Source of the DNA: Enterococcus asini ATCC 700915 | GTDB taxonomy: Bacteria; Bacillota; Bacilli; Lactobacillales; Enterococcaceae | Direction of reading: 5' to 3' | DNA: 64,000 bases | Assembly: GCF_000407365.1 (NCBI RefSeq) | Contig: NZ_ASVU01000001.1 | Coordinates: forward strand, 1,149,501-1,213,500 | Shown: piece by piece, positions 1 through 9,138 of the stretch | Numbering within the stretch: position 1 is the stretch's first letter | Layout: each line of letters starts with the position of its first letter | The notes under the pieces: generated by a model | What the model saw: the letters and a program-made list of their open reading frames with translations, nothing else | Database searches by the model: none | Told to the model about the DNA's origin: nothing | Made by a program: the position numbers and the translations under genes

Positions 1-767
1 TGAGCAGCTTCAAAGTTTTCATACGCTTTTGATGGATAGACTTCTTCTTTTTTGAGTGAGGCGTGAAACGATTCGATACCGGCATTGTCATACGGACAGC
101 CTTTACGACTAAAGGAGTGCCGAATGTTCAATTCTTTCAACTTTGCCTCATAGGCTTCGCTAGTGTACTGAGAACCCAAGTCTGAGTGGATGATCAAGTT
201 CTCGGAGGGCGTGTGGTTTAAGAGCGCATGGTCAAGGGTTTCGATAACCAGTTCTTTCGTCATCTGCTTGCCAAACTTCCAACCGATGATTTTCTTTGTG
301 TGAAGATCTTGGATGGTGGAAAGATAGGTCCAGCCATCTTTTAGGGTATGAATATAGGTAATGTCTGTCACCCATTTTTGATTGATCGACGTAGTGGTAA
401 AATCTTGGTTTAACAGGTTTTTACGTCCTTCACTTTTAACTTTTGCTTGTTTGCCAGGCTTGTACTTCTTGAGGGTGATTGAACGCAAGCCTAATTTTCT
501 CATCAGTATTTGTACTTTCTTTAGGGACAAGGTCTCGCCACGGCCAACAAGAATCTTATGAATTTTGGGCGCACCATAGATACCCTTGTTTTCAAAGTAG
601 ATTCCTGAAATCAAGCGGTTTAAGCGTTTGTTTTCTGATTGGCGCTTGGAAGGCTTCTTTTTCTTCCAGTCATAGTAGCTGGATTTCGGTGCTTCCAAAA
701 CGGTACACATTTGTTTTACGTCATGATCATGAACATTTGATTGAATAAATTCGAAGACATCACTCAT
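1..767 (-). CDS. IS3-family transposase OrfB, partial (copy A)
   Basis: DDE integrase-type transposase, the catalytic half of an IS3-family OrfAB enzyme. The visible 255 residues match copy B (3112-3987) without an obvious difference. The HTH_21 region, the rve core with the first Asp (WVTDITYI), the second Asp (HSDLGSQYT) and the Glu (NAGIESFH) are all present. Only about 36 C-terminal codons lie off the window. The start is an ATG two bases after the orfA stop, in the -1 frame, so most of the enzyme is expected as an OrfAB frameshift product. Confidence 0.93.
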   Translation of the reverse strand, partial: MSDVFEFIQSNVHDHDVKQMCTVLEAPKSSYYDWKKKKPSKRQSENKRLNRLISGIYFENKGIYGAPKIHKILVGRGETLSLKKVQILMRKLGLRSITLKKYKPGKQAKVKSEGRKNLLNQDFTTTSINQKWVTDITYIHTLKDGWTYLSTIQDLHTKKIIGWKFGKQMTKELVIETLDHALLNHTPSENLIIHSDLGSQYTSEAYEAKLKELNIRHSFSRKGCPYDNAGIESFHASLKKEEVYPSKAYENFEAA

Positions 768-769
768 TT

Positions 770-1033
770 TTACTTTTGAGCGAATATGGTTAAAGCCTTT
801 TTTAGGATAGTGTTTTCCTCCTGCATGCGGGCCATTTCCTTTTTCATTGCTAGGATTTCTGCCTTAGTCATGCCGGTTGCTTCATTCTTTGTATAAAGCT
901 TCTTCCAACGATAAATCGTTTGTGTAGCGATACCATATTGCGCTGCCAGTTCCTCGACCGATTGGCCAGACTGGTTTAAATCTAAGATCATCTTCTTAAA
1001 GTCTTCATCAAATTTTTTCTTGGCTTTTGCCAT
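770..1033 (-). CDS. IS3-family transposase OrfA (copy A)
   Basis: A helix-turn-helix protein of 87 residues that recognises the element ends. The HTH_Tnp_1 domain spans about residues 1-55 (SVEELAAQYGIATQTIYRWKK). A leucine-zipper-like helix follows (KKEMARMQEENTILKKAL). I chose the ATG at 1033 because AAGGA lies about ten bases upstream; an in-frame GTG at 1042 is too close to that site. A run of six A followed by G near the 3' end is a typical IS3 -1 slippage site leading into orfB. Confidence 0.92.
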   Translation of the reverse strand: MAKAKKKFDEDFKKMILDLNQSGQSVEELAAQYGIATQTIYRWKKLYTKNEATGMTKAEILAMKKEMARMQEENTILKKALTIFAQK

Positions 1034-1058
1034 CGTGGACACGTCCTTTTCTTAGTAG

Positions 1059-1388
1059 TTAGATTCTACCAAATCGTGTCCATGAAATCATCCTAACATC
1101 AGTCCATATACCTTCTACTGGGAAAGAAGTCCAATCAACAACTTCTTCGTAGTTTCTACTTCGCACATAATCTGCAAATCTTTTGTTATAAAAAAGTCGC
1201 AATTCAAAACATTCCAGATTGGTTTTTCTTTTGCCATTGTATTTATAGATCACCTGATAATAAATACCACAATTGCACAAACGAAATTCTTCATATCCAT
1301 ATTTTTCGAATACAGCCATAACATCAAGGAAGTTCTTTTGAGCTCTTGCTTCCTTTGAAACAATTCTATCGAAATAAGATAACTTCAA
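1059..1388 (-). CDS. Unknown small protein, 3' end replaced by the IS
   Basis: A 109-residue frame starting at TTG behind GAGGAG. I do not recognise the family. It is rich in aromatic and charged residues (FRLCNCGIYYQVIYKYNGK). The last dozen residues (from VRMISWTRF) are encoded inside the insertion sequence, so the native C-terminus is lost. It lies 35 bases after a ribbon-helix-helix gene and after the methyltransferase fragment, all on the minus strand. It was probably the last gene of the operon that carried the restriction-modification gene. The function is unknown. Confidence 0.6.
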   Translation of the reverse strand: MKLSYFDRIVSKEARAQKNFLDVMAVFEKYGYEEFRLCNCGIYYQVIYKYNGKRKTNLECFELRLFYNKRFADYVRSRNYEEVVDWTSFPVEGIWTDVRMISWTRFGRI

Positions 1389-1423: not shown

Positions 1424-1612
1424 TTAGTTATTGTTACTTTCTTCAGCTCGTTTCATTTTTTCGTTGTAGTCCTCAACATAAGCTTCAACGGCTCTTTCAA
1501 TAGCTACCGTTTTAGGCTGTCCAGACTCTTCGCAAAATGCTTCAAGCTTGTCATATATTGTTTTGTCCATTCGGATTGAGAATGGCTTGCTGTCTTTTTT
1601 TTGTCTTGCCAT
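1424..1612 (-). CDS. Ribbon-helix-helix (CopG/Arc-type) DNA-binding protein
   Basis: A 62-residue basic protein. Residues 10-50 (PFSIRMDKTIYDKLEAFCEESG, then KTVAIERAVEAYVEDY) fit a ribbon-helix-helix fold, with one beta strand making DNA contacts and two helices for dimerisation. A strong AAGGAGGAG site precedes the ATG. The gene starts 12 bases after the stop of the methyltransferase fragment, so it was co-transcribed with it. Such proteins usually act as local repressors, and control of the restriction-modification gene is a reasonable inference. No operator could be assigned. Confidence 0.75.
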   Translation of the reverse strand: MARQKKDSKPFSIRMDKTIYDKLEAFCEESGQPKTVAIERAVEAYVEDYNEKMKRAEESNNN

Positions 1613-1624
1613 ACATTCTCCTCC

Positions 1625-2779
1625 TTATTCCATTGGTTTTACCATTGTATCAATCATTTGAATTTCATCTTCTGAAAGACCATATTTCTGATACAACTGA
1701 GCATCAATATTAGAAGGAGTTTCTTTCCAATTTATAGTTGAACTGTTTGTGAAGTCTAACAAAGGAACAAACCTATAAACATTTTGGGAAATATTCTGAG
1801 AAACCTTTAAGATACCAATCATGAATCTAAAGAATTTTGTTGTCATATATTTTTGAAGATTCACGGCTTCTTCTTTAGTGTCAAAGCATCCGATTGGAAT
1901 AAGTGAATCTGTACAAGCAGATTGAGGCTTACCAATATATGCTTTTCCAATTATAGCAACAGGCTTTTCATTGTTAAGAATTCCAGCTCCACCATTGCCT
2001 TTTGAAGTAAATACTTTCCACTTATCTGCAATTTCCAGATTCTTACTAATATTGGTTTTTGACGTATACTTTATTTCTTCGTGAGCACAACGTAATTCGT
2101 AAGCACCTTCAAAGTATTTATCAGAAGTAATCTTCTTTAACTCGCTTTCTTTACCAACTATGCCAAAAGCATTTCTTCCTTGGGTTATAGTCATCATTGA
2201 AACAAAGTCAGATGCAGATCTAACTTTATTTAACACATTAACAAATCCATTCATTGAAAGAATTATATCTAATCCATCTTCAAATAATGGACGAGAAATG
2301 CAATCTTTCATTTCGCTTGTACACTCATAGAAGTTTACATCTCCATTGTGAGATTGCTTGTACAAGAAATAGTTAACTCCTCCCGCTATTTCTACGCCAT
2401 TAAAGATGTCCTTGTTGTTTGGATAGTGATAAATAGCTTCAAAATGTTGTTTGTCACTAATAAACTCTCTCAACTTGATAAATGATTTATCTTGTGCATC
2501 TGCAGTAAACCATCTAGAAGGTGTAATCAATGAAACATATTCTGCACCTAATGTTATGGATTGCTGTATAAAAGTTGGGAACATCTGTTTAGAAAGAGAT
2601 GCATTTTCATCACTATTTGAAATATTACTTTGATAAGGTGGATTACCTACTATCGCATCAAATTTCATTTCTCCTCCTCCTTTATTCCAGAAGTTCGCTC
2701 TTAACACTCTTTTTCTAAATTGTTCAGGCTTATTCTGCAATATATTCAATAAATCATCGAAACAATGAGCATTAACCTG
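1625..2779 (-). pseudogene. Helicase-methyltransferase (type ISP/IIG-like R-M) fragment: methylase motif IV and target recognition part
   Basis: An open frame that has no native start and runs from the insertion sequence boundary. The protein opens VNAHCFDDLLN, then MKFDAIVGNPPYQ. NPPY is the amino-methyltransferase motif IV of N6-adenine methylases. The roughly 300 residues that follow (LITPSRWFTADAQDKSF, GGVNYFLYK, then a divergent C-terminal half) resemble the rest of the methylase and a target-recognition domain. The first open codon that could start is a TTG at 2749, but coding similarity clearly extends upstream of it to the IS edge. The matching upstream half lies on the plus strand at 4017-5867. 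This piece alone lacks the AdoMet-binding motif I, so it is very probably inactive. Confidence 0.8.
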
Positions 2780-2845
2780 ATGTTAGGATGATTTCATGGA
2801 CACGATTTGGTAGAATCTAACTACTAAGAAAAGGACGTGTCCACG

Positions 2846-3109
2846 ATGGCAAAAGCCAAGAAAAAATTTGATGAAGACTTTAAGAAGATGATCTTAGATT
2901 TAAACCAGTCTGGCCAATCGGTCGAGGAACTGGCAGCGCAATATGGTATCGCTACACAAACGATTTATCGTTGGAAGAAGCTTTATACAAAGAATGAAGC
3001 AACCGGCATGACTAAGGCAGAAATCCTAGCAATGAAAAAGGAAATGGCCCGCATGCAGGAGGAAAACACTATCCTAAAAAAGGCTTTAACCATATTCGCT
3101 CAAAAGTAA
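2846..3109 (+). CDS. IS3-family transposase OrfA (copy B)
   Basis: An 87-residue helix-turn-helix protein that appears identical to the copy at 770-1033, with an HTH core and a C-terminal leucine-zipper-like helix. The ATG is preceded by AAGGA at about ten bases. Near the 3' end a run of six A plus G (3076-3082) gives an IS3-type slippage site. In the -1 frame the sequence stays open from there into orfB (KKGFNHIRSKVK then MSD), so an OrfAB fusion can be made. Confidence 0.92.
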   Translation: MAKAKKKFDEDFKKMILDLNQSGQSVEELAAQYGIATQTIYRWKKLYTKNEATGMTKAEILAMKKEMARMQEENTILKKALTIFAQK

Positions 3110-3111
3110 AA

Positions 3112-3987
3112 ATGAGTGATGTCTTCGAATTTATTCAATCAAATGTTCATGATCATGACGTAAAACAAATGTGTACCGTTTTGGAAGCACCGAAATCCAG
3201 CTACTATGACTGGAAGAAAAAGAAGCCTTCCAAGCGCCAATCAGAAAACAAACGCTTAAACCGCTTGATTTCAGGAATCTACTTTGAAAACAAGGGTATC
3301 TATGGTGCGCCCAAAATTCATAAGATTCTTGTTGGCCGTGGCGAGACCTTGTCCCTAAAGAAAGTACAAATACTGATGAGAAAATTAGGCTTGCGTTCAA
3401 TCACCCTCAAGAAGTACAAGCCTGGCAAACAAGCAAAAGTTAAAAGTGAAGGACGTAAAAACCTGTTAAACCAAGATTTTACCACTACGTCGATCAATCA
3501 AAAATGGGTGACAGACATTACCTATATTCATACCCTAAAAGATGGCTGGACCTATCTTTCCACCATCCAAGATCTTCACACAAAGAAAATCATCGGTTGG
3601 AAGTTTGGCAAGCAGATGACGAAAGAACTGGTTATCGAAACCCTTGACCATGCGCTCTTAAACCACACGCCCTCCGAGAACTTGATCATCCACTCAGACT
3701 TGGGTTCTCAGTACACTAGCGAAGCCTATGAGGCAAAGTTGAAAGAATTGAACATTCGGCACTCCTTTAGTCGTAAAGGCTGTCCGTATGACAATGCCGG
3801 TATCGAATCGTTTCACGCCTCACTCAAAAAAGAAGAAGTCTATCCATCAAAAGCGTATGAAAACTTTGAAGCTGCTCATTTAGCGTTATTTCAATACATT
3901 GAAGGATTTTACAATCGCAAGCGAATCCATAGTAGTATTAATTATTTAACACCAAATCAGATGGAAGAGTTGGCATTGCAAGCTTAG
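3112..3987 (+). CDS. IS3-family transposase OrfB (copy B)
   Basis: A 291-residue DDE transposase. An N-terminal helix-turn-helix region (IYFENKGIYGAPKIHKIL, HTH_21) precedes the retroviral integrase-like core: Asp in WVTDITYI, Asp in HSDLGSQYTS, and Glu in NAGIESFHASLKKEEV, with IS3-like spacing. The C-terminal FYNRKRIHSSINYLTP is typical of the family. The length is full and no lesion is visible. It is probably active mainly as the OrfAB frameshift fusion. Confidence 0.95.
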   Translation: MSDVFEFIQSNVHDHDVKQMCTVLEAPKSSYYDWKKKKPSKRQSENKRLNRLISGIYFENKGIYGAPKIHKILVGRGETLSLKKVQILMRKLGLRSITLKKYKPGKQAKVKSEGRKNLLNQDFTTTSINQKWVTDITYIHTLKDGWTYLSTIQDLHTKKIIGWKFGKQMTKELVIETLDHALLNHTPSENLIIHSDLGSQYTSEAYEAKLKELNIRHSFSRKGCPYDNAGIESFHASLKKEEVYPSKAYENFEAAHLALFQYIEGFYNRKRIHSSINYLTPNQMEELALQA

Positions 3988-4016
3988 TTCCTAGCTACCA
4001 CCTACATTTTTTTTGC

Positions 4017-5867
4017 GAGATTTCCACAGGGCTTCAACTTCATCGCTTCGATCAGCGGTCAAACGGTTTTGGTTTGACGGCTGGTCGAAACGATGAGATA
4101 CTAACCCGCTGGAATCTCGAAAAAATTCTCACAAATCGTGTCCGAGGTATTGACTCAAATCCAACTGGTGATTTCAGCGTTGATTATGCTGATATGCCTG
4201 TTGGTGCTGAAATTGGGGATTTTGTACATGAATCCGATGTATGGTCTTTCCTTAACCTTATGACAAAGGAAAGTGAAGATAGCTATTATCCATACAGCAA
4301 CGATGAATACAGAGCCTTATTCAAACATTCTCTTTGGATGGTGCCTGGTGTCAAAGAAGCCAGAGCATTAAAGAAATTGATGTTAAAGCACCCAGTCTTT
4401 GGCTGTGGTCAGTTTAACATTGTCAATGTTGCTGGTAATGGTGACGAGGAAGAAGCATCAGAAGAAGCACTTAAAAAGGTTCGTAAAGCCATTAAAGATG
4501 CTGGGGATGATTACACAATTACCTTATCTTGTGGCAAGCTGACAACTGGTGTTACCGTCAAGGAATGGACTGCTGTATTTATGCTTGCAGGATCGTATTC
4601 GACTTCTGCCGCAAACTACTTGCAGACAATATTCCGTGTTCAGAGTCCTTGCAATGAAAACGGTAAGATAAAGGAAAATGCTTATGTATTTGACTTTGCA
4701 CCAGACAGAACTTTGAAAATGGTATCTTCTGCTGTATCGGTATCTTCCAAAGCTGGAAAGACAAAGATCGGTGATAAGCAGATTATGGGAAAATTCTTGA
4801 ACTACTGCCCTGTTATCGGCATTAGTGGTTCAGAAATGCAAGAATACTCTGCAACCGTTCTTCTTCAGCAATTAAAGAGAGCTTATGCCGATAAGGTTGT
4901 TAGAAACGGATTTGATGATAGCAACCTTTACAATGATGAACTGTTCAAACTTCAAGCCGTAGATATTAAGAAGTTTGATGAATTGAAAGGTATTATCGGA
5001 TCTTCAAAAGCTCAGCCTAAAGCAAAAGATATTACTGTCAATGATCAGGGCTTAACAAACGAGGAATACGAAGAAGCCGAAAAGCTTAATAAGAAAAAGA
5101 AGAAAGAACTTACACCAGAGGAAAAAGCACGACTTGAAGAATTAAAACGACTCAAGAAAGTTCGTAACGATGCAATCAGTATTCTTAGAGGTATTTCTAT
5201 AAGAATGCCATTGCTGATTTATGGTGCTGATATTCCTTATGACGAAGAAATTACCTTAGACAAATTTGTTGATGTTGTAGATGATTCTTCTTGGGATGAG
5301 TTTATGCCTACTGGTGTAACTAAAGAGAAGTTCAAGGAATTCCAAAAGTATTACGATGAAGAAGTCTTCATTGCAGCTGGTCGCAGAATTAGAAATATTG
5401 CAAGAGAAGCAGATACTTTGGATCCTACTGAACGAGTTATAAAGATTGCAAGTCTGTTCAGTTACTTCAAGAATCCTGATAAAGAGACTGTTCTTACTCC
5501 ATGGAGAGTAGTGAATATGCATATGAGTGATACTCTTGGTGGTTGGGATTTCTGGGACGAACAGCATGCCGATACTTTAGACTCTCCTCGATTTGTTGAT
5601 CGTGGTGAAGTAACAGCAAAAACATTCGGAAAGAATGATGCTCAGATACTTGAAATAAACAGCAAAACAGGCCTTTATCCTTTGTATGTTGCTTATAGTT
5701 TTTATAGAAACAAGCTTGAAGCTTTGCATAAAGATGAAGTGTCTGAAGAGACAAAACAAAGATTATGGAATAAATCAATTGAAGAAAATATATACGTTAT
5801 ATGCAAAACGCCGATGGCTAAGGCTATTACGAAAAGAACATTAACTGGATATGGTTCAGTAAAGGTT
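4017..5867 (+). pseudogene. Helicase-methyltransferase (type ISP/IIG-like R-M) fragment: helicase C-terminal half, coupler and methylase motif I
   Basis: The frame is open from the insertion sequence to 5948, but coding that fits the family stops near 5867; the last 27 codons are read from the next IS. It carries superfamily-2 helicase motif V (KLTTGVTVKEW) and motif VI (YLQTIFRVQSP), then a long charged coupler (EEYEEAEKLNKKKKKE). A methylase motif I-like segment (QILEINSKTGLYPLY) comes near the end. Walker A/B helicase motifs and any nuclease domain are missing and were lost upstream at the IS junction. No native start is visible; TTG 4074 is only the first possible start codon. The remainder of the methylase is at 1625-2779 on the other strand. 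Confidence 0.8.
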
Positions 5868-5908
5868 GGATTTGAGTCAATATCTTGGACACATTTTAGT
5901 AGAGACGG

Positions 5909-6730
5909 TTACGCCATTTTTTCTTTTGCTAACTCTTCAAACTCCTGAGGGGTTAGATAGTGAATCGAGCTGTGAATTCGATTCCGGTTATAAAATCCTT
6001 CAATGTAACTAAATAGTGCTCGATTCGCTTCTTCGAAGTCTGAGTAAGTCGTCGTGTATACTTCTTCTTTTTTCAATGATGCATGGAAGGACTCAATTCC
6101 TGCATTATCATAGGGTGTTCCTTTGCGACTATAGGAATGTCTTATTTTATTGTTTTCAAGCCAACTTTCCACTTCGATTGCTGTATATTGACTACCTAAA
6201 TCGGTGTGTAGAATCATTCCTTCTGGAATGTGGTACCGTTGTTTCGCTTGATTGAGTGTTTGTAACACACAATCGACAGTCATTCGCTTAGAAAATGTAT
6301 AGCTAATAATCTTTTTCGTGTGTAAATCCATAATTGAAGATAAGTAACACCAACCATTTTTCTTAGTTGGAATGTAGGTGATATCAGCTACCCATTTTTC
6401 ACAGATAGTTTTAGTAGAAAAGTCCTGATTTAAGATGTTCTCTTTTAAAACAACCGGCTGAACAGACCGTTGAGGTCTGTATTTCTTAACCACAATTGAC
6501 CTTAGATTTAATTGTTTCATCAATTTTTGAACATGCTTAAGAGATACTGAAATTCCTTCTTTTAGCAACACTTGATGGATTTTTGTTGCACCATATCTCT
6601 GTTTATGATCAAAAAAGATCGTTGAAATCTTCTTTTTCAATTGGTTATTTCTGACTTCTGTAGCTGTTAACGATTTATTTTTATAAAAATAGTAGACGCT
6701 CCTAGGAATTTCTAATAACCGACACAACAA
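5909..6730 (-). CDS. IS3-family transposase OrfB (second element)
   Basis: A DDE transposase of at least 273 residues. Catalytic residues are in WVADITYI, HTDLGSQYTA and NAGIESFHASLKKEEV, and the C-terminus FYNRNRIHSSIHYLTP is family-typical. The only start inside is a TTG without a good ribosome site. Upstream, the frame stays open back to the A7 run of orfA (about 6817), reading through SLVRFIEKWCKDYT. The product is therefore most likely made only as an OrfAB fusion by -1 slippage. It is about 60 percent similar by eye to the OrfB of the other element. Confidence 0.9.
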   Translation of the reverse strand: MLCRLLEIPRSVYYFYKNKSLTATEVRNNQLKKKISTIFFDHKQRYGATKIHQVLLKEGISVSLKHVQKLMKQLNLRSIVVKKYRPQRSVQPVVLKENILNQDFSTKTICEKWVADITYIPTKKNGWCYLSSIMDLHTKKIISYTFSKRMTVDCVLQTLNQAKQRYHIPEGMILHTDLGSQYTAIEVESWLENNKIRHSYSRKGTPYDNAGIESFHASLKKEEVYTTTYSDFEEANRALFSYIEGFYNRNRIHSSIHYLTPQEFEELAKEKMA

Positions 6731-6780
6731 AGAAACAGTGTAATCCTTACACCATTTTTCAATGAATCGGACAAGTGACT

Positions 6781-7044
6781 TCAGGTCTTTCGAGAGAATA
6801 TGGCTGCGGCTTTTTTTAATATTTCAAGTTCCTCTTTCAAACGAGCATTTTCTTTTCTCAAATCAGCCGCTTCTTTTCCGGTTAGTCCTGTGGACGGATC
6901 AGGTAAGTATAAATTCTTCCACTTATAAATCGTCGCTTCAGCTAAGCCATATTCTTTCGCCAACCCTCGAACAGAACGTCCAGTTTGATTTAGTTCAACA
7001 ATCATCTGTTTAAAATTTTCTTCATATCGGGTCATAAAATCCAT
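6781..7044 (-). CDS. IS3-family transposase OrfA (second element)
   Basis: A helix-turn-helix protein of 84-87 residues (SVRGLAKEYGLAEATIYKWKN) with a C-terminal zipper-like helix (KENARLKEELEILKKAA). Two in-frame ATGs, at 7044 and 7035, follow GAGAGG; the second has the better spacing. A run of seven A at 6811-6817 (minus strand) forms the slippage site for OrfAB production. Confidence 0.9.
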   Translation of the reverse strand: MDFMTRYEENFKQMIVELNQTGRSVRGLAKEYGLAEATIYKWKNLYLPDPSTGLTGKEAADLRKENARLKEELEILKKAAAIFSRKT

Positions 7045-7217
7045 CCTCTCGTAGATAAGTTTAATTTATTTCTGTCTCTACGAAAAGATGTCTAAGATTT
7101 GATACTAACACTACATCTACCGATAGCTTTTCCAGAAATGCCTGTATTTATCACATAAGTATCGGTATTTTTCCTTAATACTATTTTGACATTGGTTTAT
7201 CACCTAATTATGTGAAA

Positions 7218-7799
7218 TTAAGCATAATTTGAAAAGTCATCGTCTATTGGAAACTCTTGTTCTATTAAATCTAATTCTTCTTCAAGTGTCTTTTTATCAG
7301 GTATAGGTAACAACTTAACATCCGAAACAGACTCCCCAGTTCTGGCTCTTTCATTACATTCTCGCCTTGACTTTCTTTGTTGGTTTACTTCTTCATAGGC
7401 ATATACAATAAAACGATCTACAAGAACTTGAAATCCATACATAGTACTTGTATCAACAATACAGAAATAATTGAGATGGAGTAATTCTCTATAACACTTC
7501 TCAACCGTTTCTAATTCAAGATCGTACTTGCATGCAAATTGTGCTAATAGACCTTTTACCTCGTATTCGTCAATATAGAAGCCGTTATGTAGTATCTGTG
7601 TTCTTAGAAACATATACAAGGACATCGGTATTAGCTTAAACTTTCTTTGGATAGCTCGGAATTGAGGGTTATCAATCATTTGAATATCAGTGCTTATATA
7701 GTTAATTTTGCTTATGTAAGTAGTCTTTCTGTAAGTTTCATCAATTGTATAGATTATTTCGGGTGTAATAGCTTTTCCTTTTTGATAGATTTTTGCCAT
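7218..7799 (-). CDS. Unknown protein, replication-initiator-like (Lin1244/DUF4373-type N-terminus)
   Basis: A 193-residue protein behind a strong AAAGGAG site. Residues 40-110 (FRAIQRKFKLIPMSLYMFLR, then ILHNGFYIDEYEVKGLLAQF) look like the winged-helix N-terminal domain found in phage and plasmid DnaD/Lin1244-type proteins. The C-terminal part is charged, with an acidic tail (EEELDLIEQEFPIDDD). The resemblance is by pattern only. It sits next to a repeat-rich gap with DnaA-box-like sequences, which suits a replication role for the accessory element. GC content is low, as in the rest of this segment. Confidence 0.6.
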   Translation of the reverse strand: MAKIYQKGKAITPEIIYTIDETYRKTTYISKINYISTDIQMIDNPQFRAIQRKFKLIPMSLYMFLRTQILHNGFYIDEYEVKGLLAQFACKYDLELETVEKCYRELLHLNYFCIVDTSTMYGFQVLVDRFIVYAYEEVNQQRKSRRECNERARTGESVSDVKLLPIPDKKTLEEELDLIEQEFPIDDDFSNYA

Positions 7800-8233: not shown

Positions 8234-8267
8234 AAAAAGAAAGGGCTGGTCTATTCGACCAACCCTT
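8234..8267 (-). terminator. Intrinsic terminator
   Basis: An eleven-base stem (AAGGGTTGGTC / GACCAGCCCTT in the minus orientation, one G-U pair) with loop GAATA, followed by TTTCTTTTT. It lies directly downstream of a stop codon at 8291-8293 belonging to a truncated gene end (see findings) and now terminates the broken rnfC transcript. Confidence 0.85.
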
Positions 8268-9138
8268 AAAAATACCGTAAAATCAATATATTATTTACCG
8301 AAGTAACGATCCAAAAGACCCTTAAGAGCTTTTCCATGTCGATATTCAGCACGAGGCATCCCACGGCACTGGGCAGCCCTCCAGTAGGTACTCGACGCTT
8401 CGTGGTGGCAAAAATCAGCATCTTTTCCGCCCCTTGAGGATAGCGAGGGGGCAAGGATTGTAGCGTGATTCGGTCTGTAAGTTCTAACGCTTGAATCTGC
8501 GCTGCTAAAGTCGCGATGGCTTCCGGTTTATTGCTTTCGATGCCGATAATGCTTCGAGAAATCTCTAGCCAATCCAAAAGGGTCACGATGCCGCGTAAAA
8601 TCCGCTGGGGTTCTTCTACTGCTTCCCGATTATCCGAGGTGATGAAGGGCTCACATTCGGCACCATTGATGATCAAGGTATCGATGGCATCTTTTGTCGC
8701 AAGCTTGACGTGCAGGGGAAAGCCGGCACCACCGATTCCTACTACGCCACTGTCACAGGCTGCTTGCAACAGCTCATCTTTACTAGTAATCCTTACGGGG
8801 GCCAAAGCGGGATGAGGGGTATTCAAGCCATCATTTTCGATTAGAATCGCCTCACAGCTTTGACCATTCGCGAGTAAAGTAGGTTTGATGCTCTTGACCT
8901 TTCCCGATATAGGGGCATGAATTGGCGTGGAGACATAGCCGGTCCCGGTAGCAATTACTTGGCCTACTGTCACCAGTTCTTTGGCTTTGACGGTGGCCTT
9001 GCAGACTGCGCCAATATGTTGCTGGAGTGGGAGTAAGACGCTAGCGGGCGGCTCTATGGTTTTGGTTGGGACTTGGGCCGTTCGCTTTTTGTGGGTAACC
9101 AAGGTGCCACCGGAAAATTTTCGTAAAGAAGCAAACAT
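8266..9138 (-). pseudogene. rnfC: RnfC/RsxC electron-transport subunit, truncated
   Basis: RnfC is the peripheral NADH-oxidising subunit of the Rnf complex, a membrane ferredoxin:NAD+ oxidoreductase. The N-terminal barrel-sandwich domain (about residues 5-110) and the FMN/NADH-binding 51-kDa-like part (GIGGAGFPLHVKLA near 140; INGAECEPFITSD) are present. The family continues for some 150 more residues with a SLBB domain and two 4Fe-4S clusters; here similarity ends at GCLVLNID (about 8338) and 23 unrelated codons follow. The break coincides with the edge of the AT-rich accessory segment. The start ATG has a good AGGAGG. No other rnf gene is in the window. The product should be non-functional. 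Confidence 0.85.

Follow-up and report, generated by a model that had tools for sequence, protein, structure and literature searches.

The described systems closest in chain layout to the locus reported here are the type ISP enzymes LlaGI and LlaBIII, in which, according to PMC4872093, a helicase-like ATPase is followed in one chain by a gamma-class adenine methylase and a C-terminal recognition region. Closest in parts is DnmA-YeeB-YeeC, a conserved trio that PMC9973331 describes as a non-functional restriction-system relic in Bacillus subtilis and in which an adenine methylase, a superfamily 2 helicase and a T5orf172/GIY-YIG protein occur together. The present study concerns a gene of a nuclease-helicase-methylase (N-H-M) family that lies in two pieces, H and M, among insertion sequences (IS) in Enterococcus asini ATCC 700915. 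The stretch of DNA analysed, called the window, comprises 64,000 nucleotides (positions 1149501-1213500 of contig C1, NZ_ASVU01000001.1) of a 2.57-Mb genome in two contigs. As a lesion the broken gene is ordinary IS damage; the helicase-methylase family behind it is widespread, and its methylase halves occur fused, split or re-paired in at least four ways.

The N-H-M family resembles type ISP in chain order but has a first domain that matches T5orf172 and not Mrr, a separate gene, U, and a lysine in motif I of the fused protein. The predicted model of U resembles residues 781-1011 of LlaBIII. The initial annotation had likened the gene to type ISP/IIG enzymes; as a family name type ISP was rejected because of the T5orf172 nuclease domain and the U gene, which departs from the single chain of that type. 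A 17-sequence profile of the relatives gave no sequence match to PDB chains at E 0.01, and distant kinship to LlaGI and LlaBIII is possible. Unlike DnmA-YeeB-YeeC, which consists of three whole proteins with an undivided, MmeI-like methylase, the family here has nuclease and helicase in one chain and a divided methylase, and the two are set apart by description only. The pieces are already catalogued in PADLOC, as the fused protein matches PDLC03626 (REase_MTase_IIG), M matches PDLC03375 (MTase_II) and U matches PDLC03390 (MTase_II). PADLOC lists these models as separate families and does not state that U and M are halves of one enzyme, and no description of the divided U/M arrangement was found in openly licensed PubMed Central papers.

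One gene in two pieces

H and M are two remnants of a single N-H-M family gene. The open frame of H spans the whole interval between IS B and IS C, and that of M runs from the left edge of IS B to a stop at 1625. When the two were mapped separately onto 80 relatives (the best 80 of 147 related loci, taken from named genome contigs), they fell into one common open frame in 78; in the other two, L024 and L078, the frame stays open up to the edge of the contig. Between the last residue of H and the first of M the projection leaves 0 amino acids (aa) in 74 of the 78, 1 aa in three and 6 aa in one, a co-linearity that exceeds chance by a wide margin. The record titles of the 80 relatives name Bacillota, Bacteroidota, Spirochaetota and others, and the nearest relatives, for example those of Thomasclavelia (1338 aa) and Massilimicrobiota (1353 aa), are uninterrupted through the joint. 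The initial annotation had proposed a single gene cut by an IS at this joint, with pieces that rejoin in frame, and had looked to uninterrupted homologues for support; both the proposal and the homologues are borne out. The features of the locus, in window coordinates unless a contig is named, are as follows.

1..1101, minus strand: IS copy A, IS3 family, 1386 bp, extending to window position -284 (contig C1 1149216); flanks unmatched, gac/cta
1102..1388, minus strand: open reading frame of 109 aa with its 3' end truncated by IS copy A; no function assigned
1424..1612, minus strand: ribbon-helix-helix (RHH, CopG-like) gene, 12 bases downstream of M (PF01402, E 7.4e-06)
1625..2777, minus strand: M piece, the C-terminal methylase half with NPPY and the recognition region (Eco57I, E 4e-19); 383 codons, no internal stop
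End 2777, minus strand: opening bases of the M piece, GGTT at IS B, from the sequence
2633..2644, minus strand: NPPY, methylase motif IV, from the sequence
2666..2683, minus strand: candidate internal start, AAAGGAGGAGGAGAA and then ATG (2668-2666), 36 codons inside M, from the sequence
2778..4163, plus strand: IS copy B, IS3 family, 1386 bp, identical to copy A; left flank acc, right flank act
4164..5866, plus strand: H piece, with the second helicase lobe, a coupler-like region and a variant methylase first half; 567 codons, open throughout
5646..5687, plus strand: motif-I-like ILEINSKTGLYPLY within H, with lysine at the first glycine position
5867..7113, minus strand: IS C, IS3 family, 1247 bp; right flank acc (the end of H), left flank atg
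7218..7799, minus strand: gene like the Lin1244/Lin1753 N-terminal domain (PF14297, E 0.0027, under the Pfam cut-off)
Contig C1 1147904-1149241, minus strand: integrase gene of the element around the locus, from its translation

The H piece alone has no match in Pfam, NCBIfam or PADLOC. M starts at 2777 and not, as first given, at 2779. An IS target duplication does lie at the joint, but it is the 3-base GGT and not AGGTT, the outer A and T being part of the IS ends. The N-terminal helicase motifs are gone from the window gene, as the initial annotation had said. That annotation had also named homologues with the two parts as separate genes as a finding that would speak against one gene; such genes occur in distant Lactobacillales (13 of 20 chosen loci, see below), but there the split falls about 36 codons inside M and not at the joint, and the M of the window still holds the 36 codons of the fused form upstream of the split point.

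The family and its divided methylase

Gene U precedes the N-H-M gene on the same strand in 74 of the 80 loci, within about 100 nucleotides in 71 of the 74, and appears to be needed by the system. The first domain of the N-H-M protein matches T5orf172 in 13 of 13 relatives (best E 9.9e-07), and Mrr had no match in Pfam scans of relatives, full-length or first-domain; in full-length scans T5orf172 is below the cut-off in L009 and L013 and had no match in L131 and L132, both plasmid relatives. A Foldseek search with the first domain had no hit at E 0.001 or better. The superfamily 2 helicase-like ATPase is matched by ResIII (E 5.5e-17 in L009 and 2.1e-17 in L013).

U resembles the opening half of an adenine methylase: motifs X and I are present, NPPY is absent. 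The second half is M, which contains NPPY and the recognition region. The fused chain has an Eco57I methylase match and NPPY, yet its motif I, LEINSK(S/T)GLY (LEINSKTGLY in H of the window), carries a lysine at the first glycine position in 79 of the 80 relatives. Given the known role of motif I, a lysine in the S-adenosylmethionine (AdoMet) loop makes methylation by the helicase chain alone doubtful; the placement of motif I before NPPY in the initial annotation thus holds, while the function of this variant is in doubt.

Further screens covered 105 genomes of the taxonomic family, 395 genomes of the order (53 of which match M) and plasmid records. From the family and order matches 20 Lactobacillales loci were chosen by hand, not at random; no U was seen on the stretch in three of them. 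M is a gene of its own in 13 of the 20 (about 344-368 aa; U was seen in 10 of these), forms a fusion with U in six (640-669 aa) and is fused to a helicase in one, which adjoins a second helicase gene. Since the U-M fusions continue directly from the end of U into MKFDVV.GNPPY, U and M are taken to be the halves of a single methylase. At the end of the separate helicase proteins stands a domain like the first half (FTPK.VV ... FADLYMKSGLY), with NPPY in none of 19 and the motif-I lysine in all 19. A methionine ahead of NPPY was not found in L164 by the scripted search.

Three loci stand out for their arrangement. Side by side in L162 (3623-11845) are U, a fused gene for helicase and M (1319 aa) and another helicase gene, of 1112 aa, that lacks M; two restriction chains might share one methylase half here. 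In L132 (3324-13656, Enterococcus faecium plasmid pK195-6b-A), U and the fused form stand beside a DUF262 gene, with a McrC-family gene further on, possibly a defence cluster. At its N-terminus the fused relative in L131 (2664-7046, Lactococcus cremoris plasmid pUC047G) is longer by about 150 residues, which match DUF4145, and it has no match to T5orf172; the first module of the fused protein may therefore be exchangeable.

The candidate internal start and the proposed sharing of M

These arrangements may reflect a restriction-modification system with a swappable half-methylase, a possibility put forward here tentatively and from sequence alone. U and M would assemble as the active methylase. 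The nuclease-helicase protein, which ends in a first half of its own with lysine where AdoMet should bind, would pair with M (in cis when fused), recognise the same site without methylating it, and carry out ATP-dependent restriction by the T5orf172-type nuclease driven by the helicase, with M supplying site recognition. In fused genes the free M that U needs would come from an internal start, so that one gene would give both the restriction chain and free M, and the prevailing form would set the balance of protection and attack. If M is truly shared, modification and restriction would by construction be directed at exactly the same site, free and fused M would act through their ratio as a simple switch, and the labels 'type IIG' and 'type II methyltransferase' would name parts of one enzyme. 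Production of an additional, shorter protein from within a defence gene would have parallels in McrB (PMC12707154), Cas11 and Rpn; in contrast to these, the inner product proposed here is a methylase half with its recognition region.

The candidate start is the codon before KFDA..GNPPY, which is ATG in 76 and GTG in one of the 77 fused genes scored. These counts omit L021, L024 and L078, in which the search covered only the part past residue 700 or the contig ended, and the counts of methionine sites omit L032 as well. L032 is the sole scored fused gene without methionine there, and its GTG has GGAAAGGAAG upstream. A Shine-Dalgarno (SD)-like match of at least 5 bases precedes 31 of the 36 non-Bacteroidota ATG sites, as against 0 of 40 in Bacteroidota (a group assigned from record titles, in which L010 and L020 are possibly misbinned) and 24 of 760 control methionine sites. 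Relative to synonymous codons the SD excess has a z of 4.24 for the 36 sites and 3.36 for the 29 distinct hexapeptides, with none of 2000 simulations as high. At 37 sites z is 4.34, compared with a maximum of 2.71 at 82 control offsets, which are the only means by which the kinship of the sites was handled. The Bacteroidota, a phylum in which SD leaders are not used, have no SD excess (z -1.97) but an A-rich leader (z 8.29).

To the alternative that fares best we give somewhat less than an even chance: the locus would be a plain IS casualty, the internal methionine and its leader a fossil of gene fusion, and U a leftover or regulatory methylase half, with M not shared. The retention of the methionine in U-M fusions and the modest size of the SD excess favour it; these and further results weigh against the sharing of M. 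The methionine of the start column is retained in all six U-M fusions, where an internal start is unneeded, and in 40 of 40 Bacteroidota, so it may have a structural role or be such a fossil. The SD excess is modest, for the SD-like bases are largely set by the amino acids (mean 5.19 observed, 4.47 expected), and in single homologues it is significant at P 0.05 in 0 of 36, the P of the window itself being 0.44. The A-rich signal of the Bacteroidota stands less clear of its controls (standard deviation 2.83, maximum 6.30), and a Foldseek search with U had no hit at E 0.001 or better. However, a plain casualty accounts less readily for a U gene that in 71 of 74 loci has kept its place beside the fused gene, for an SD excess above all 82 control offsets, for a lone exception to methionine that is itself a start codon, and for the invariant lysine in the fused motif I.

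Insertion sequences, probable order of events and state of the locus

IS copies A and B are one IS3-family element on opposite strands with 0 mismatches, and IS C is an IS3-family element distinct from IS B; both match transpos_IS3 (E 4.2e-93 for IS B and 1.9e-85 for IS C), with OrfA/OrfB transposase and integrase core. The genome has nine copies of IS B (eight identical) and eight of IS C (two interrupted), and IS B also occurs on 113 plasmid records, all from Enterococcus. The short target duplication expected of IS3-family elements is present for both, with identical 3-base flanks in five of nine IS B copies and three of eight IS C copies, and 4-base flanks in one further IS B copy. At this locus the flank pairs of all three IS are unmatched. 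The acc to the left of B, at the M edge, and the acc to the right of C, at the H edge, each represent one half of a single GGT duplication.

The simplest order of events would begin with the insertion of IS B into the gene at GGT between H and M, followed by insertion of IS C further upstream of H. H would then have flipped between IS B and IS C, and finally the sequence beside the left end of IS C would have been lost, taking with it gene U, which lay upstream, and the N-terminal ~400 residues. The right ends of IS B and IS C have their last 16 bases in common, and copy B shows no mismatch to seven other copies, which points to exchange within that end or by transposase. IS3-type elements such as IS911 insert beside related ends, a point not used as evidence here. 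Taken together, the explanation made up of the split N-H-M gene, this order of events and the sharing of M by U and the helicase chain is judged likely.

The inversion of one half was already part of the initial annotation and is retained here, but with H and not M as the piece that probably flipped, since M, the RHH gene, the 109-aa frame, the integrase gene and the Lin1244-like gene are all on the minus strand. The opposite view, with M inverted by recombination between copies A and B, seems rather unlikely, although two perfect inverted repeats of 1386 bp around M would make such recombination easy. It conflicts with the common strand of M and these neighbours, and when A and B trade their inner flanks the pairs become acc/cta and gac/act, without a match. 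Un-flipping M between copies A and B, when tried, thus did not restore a matching duplication. The account with H inverted has its own difficulties. The orientation argument is weak, because none of the 80 loci has a relative of the RHH gene, of the 109-aa frame or of the Lin1244-like gene; the integrase has weak matches in seven. The nearest H among the relatives has ~78% protein identity, plasmid matches to M are all below 60%, and the ancestral DNA is not visible; a near-identical intact relative was found neither on plasmids, nor in the 105 family genomes, nor among the best 80 of 147 loci. The lost parts, too, left no match in the genome itself, neither for the first ~400 residues, which comprise the first domain and the first lobe of the helicase, nor for gene U, in searches that had no positive control, although the same tool found relatives of 30-50% with H and M elsewhere.

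The helicase in the window is reduced to its second lobe, and with the first ~400 residues and U lost after the IS insertions the locus is most likely a dead remnant. The host may have lost a phage barrier, a plausible suggestion of the initial annotation. The window retains the candidate internal start at 2668, and the M piece might still be translated from it as a functional stand-alone half. Its C-terminal module is complete, its SD-like leader is strong and stand-alone M genes exist elsewhere, but U was not found in the genome (again by the search lacking a positive control), and survival of a working half is improbable. Least credible, and very improbable, is an assembly error across identical IS copies: there are eight such copies of IS B, but an exact IS end stands at each unique junction (M/IS B left, IS B right/H and H/IS C), and IS B and IS C share only exact words of 16-17 bases, so the H/IS C junction does not come from collapse of identical copies.

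Elsewhere on contig C1 (666262-668897) a copy of IS B is nested in a copy of IS C, which indicates that both elements target each other in this genome. No drug-resistance genes were seen near the locus by eye in the translations, with no resistance database search made. IS copy A truncates the 5' end of the integrase gene (contig C1 1149216-1149241), and the element itself is therefore probably immobile. Its surroundings are presumably an rnf operon. RnfD/E (PF03116) is absent in this genome and present in seven of ten genus genomes, this genome being among the ten; RnfC is shortened on one side of the element and RnfA on the other (window 8266-9138; L089, 17034-18328).
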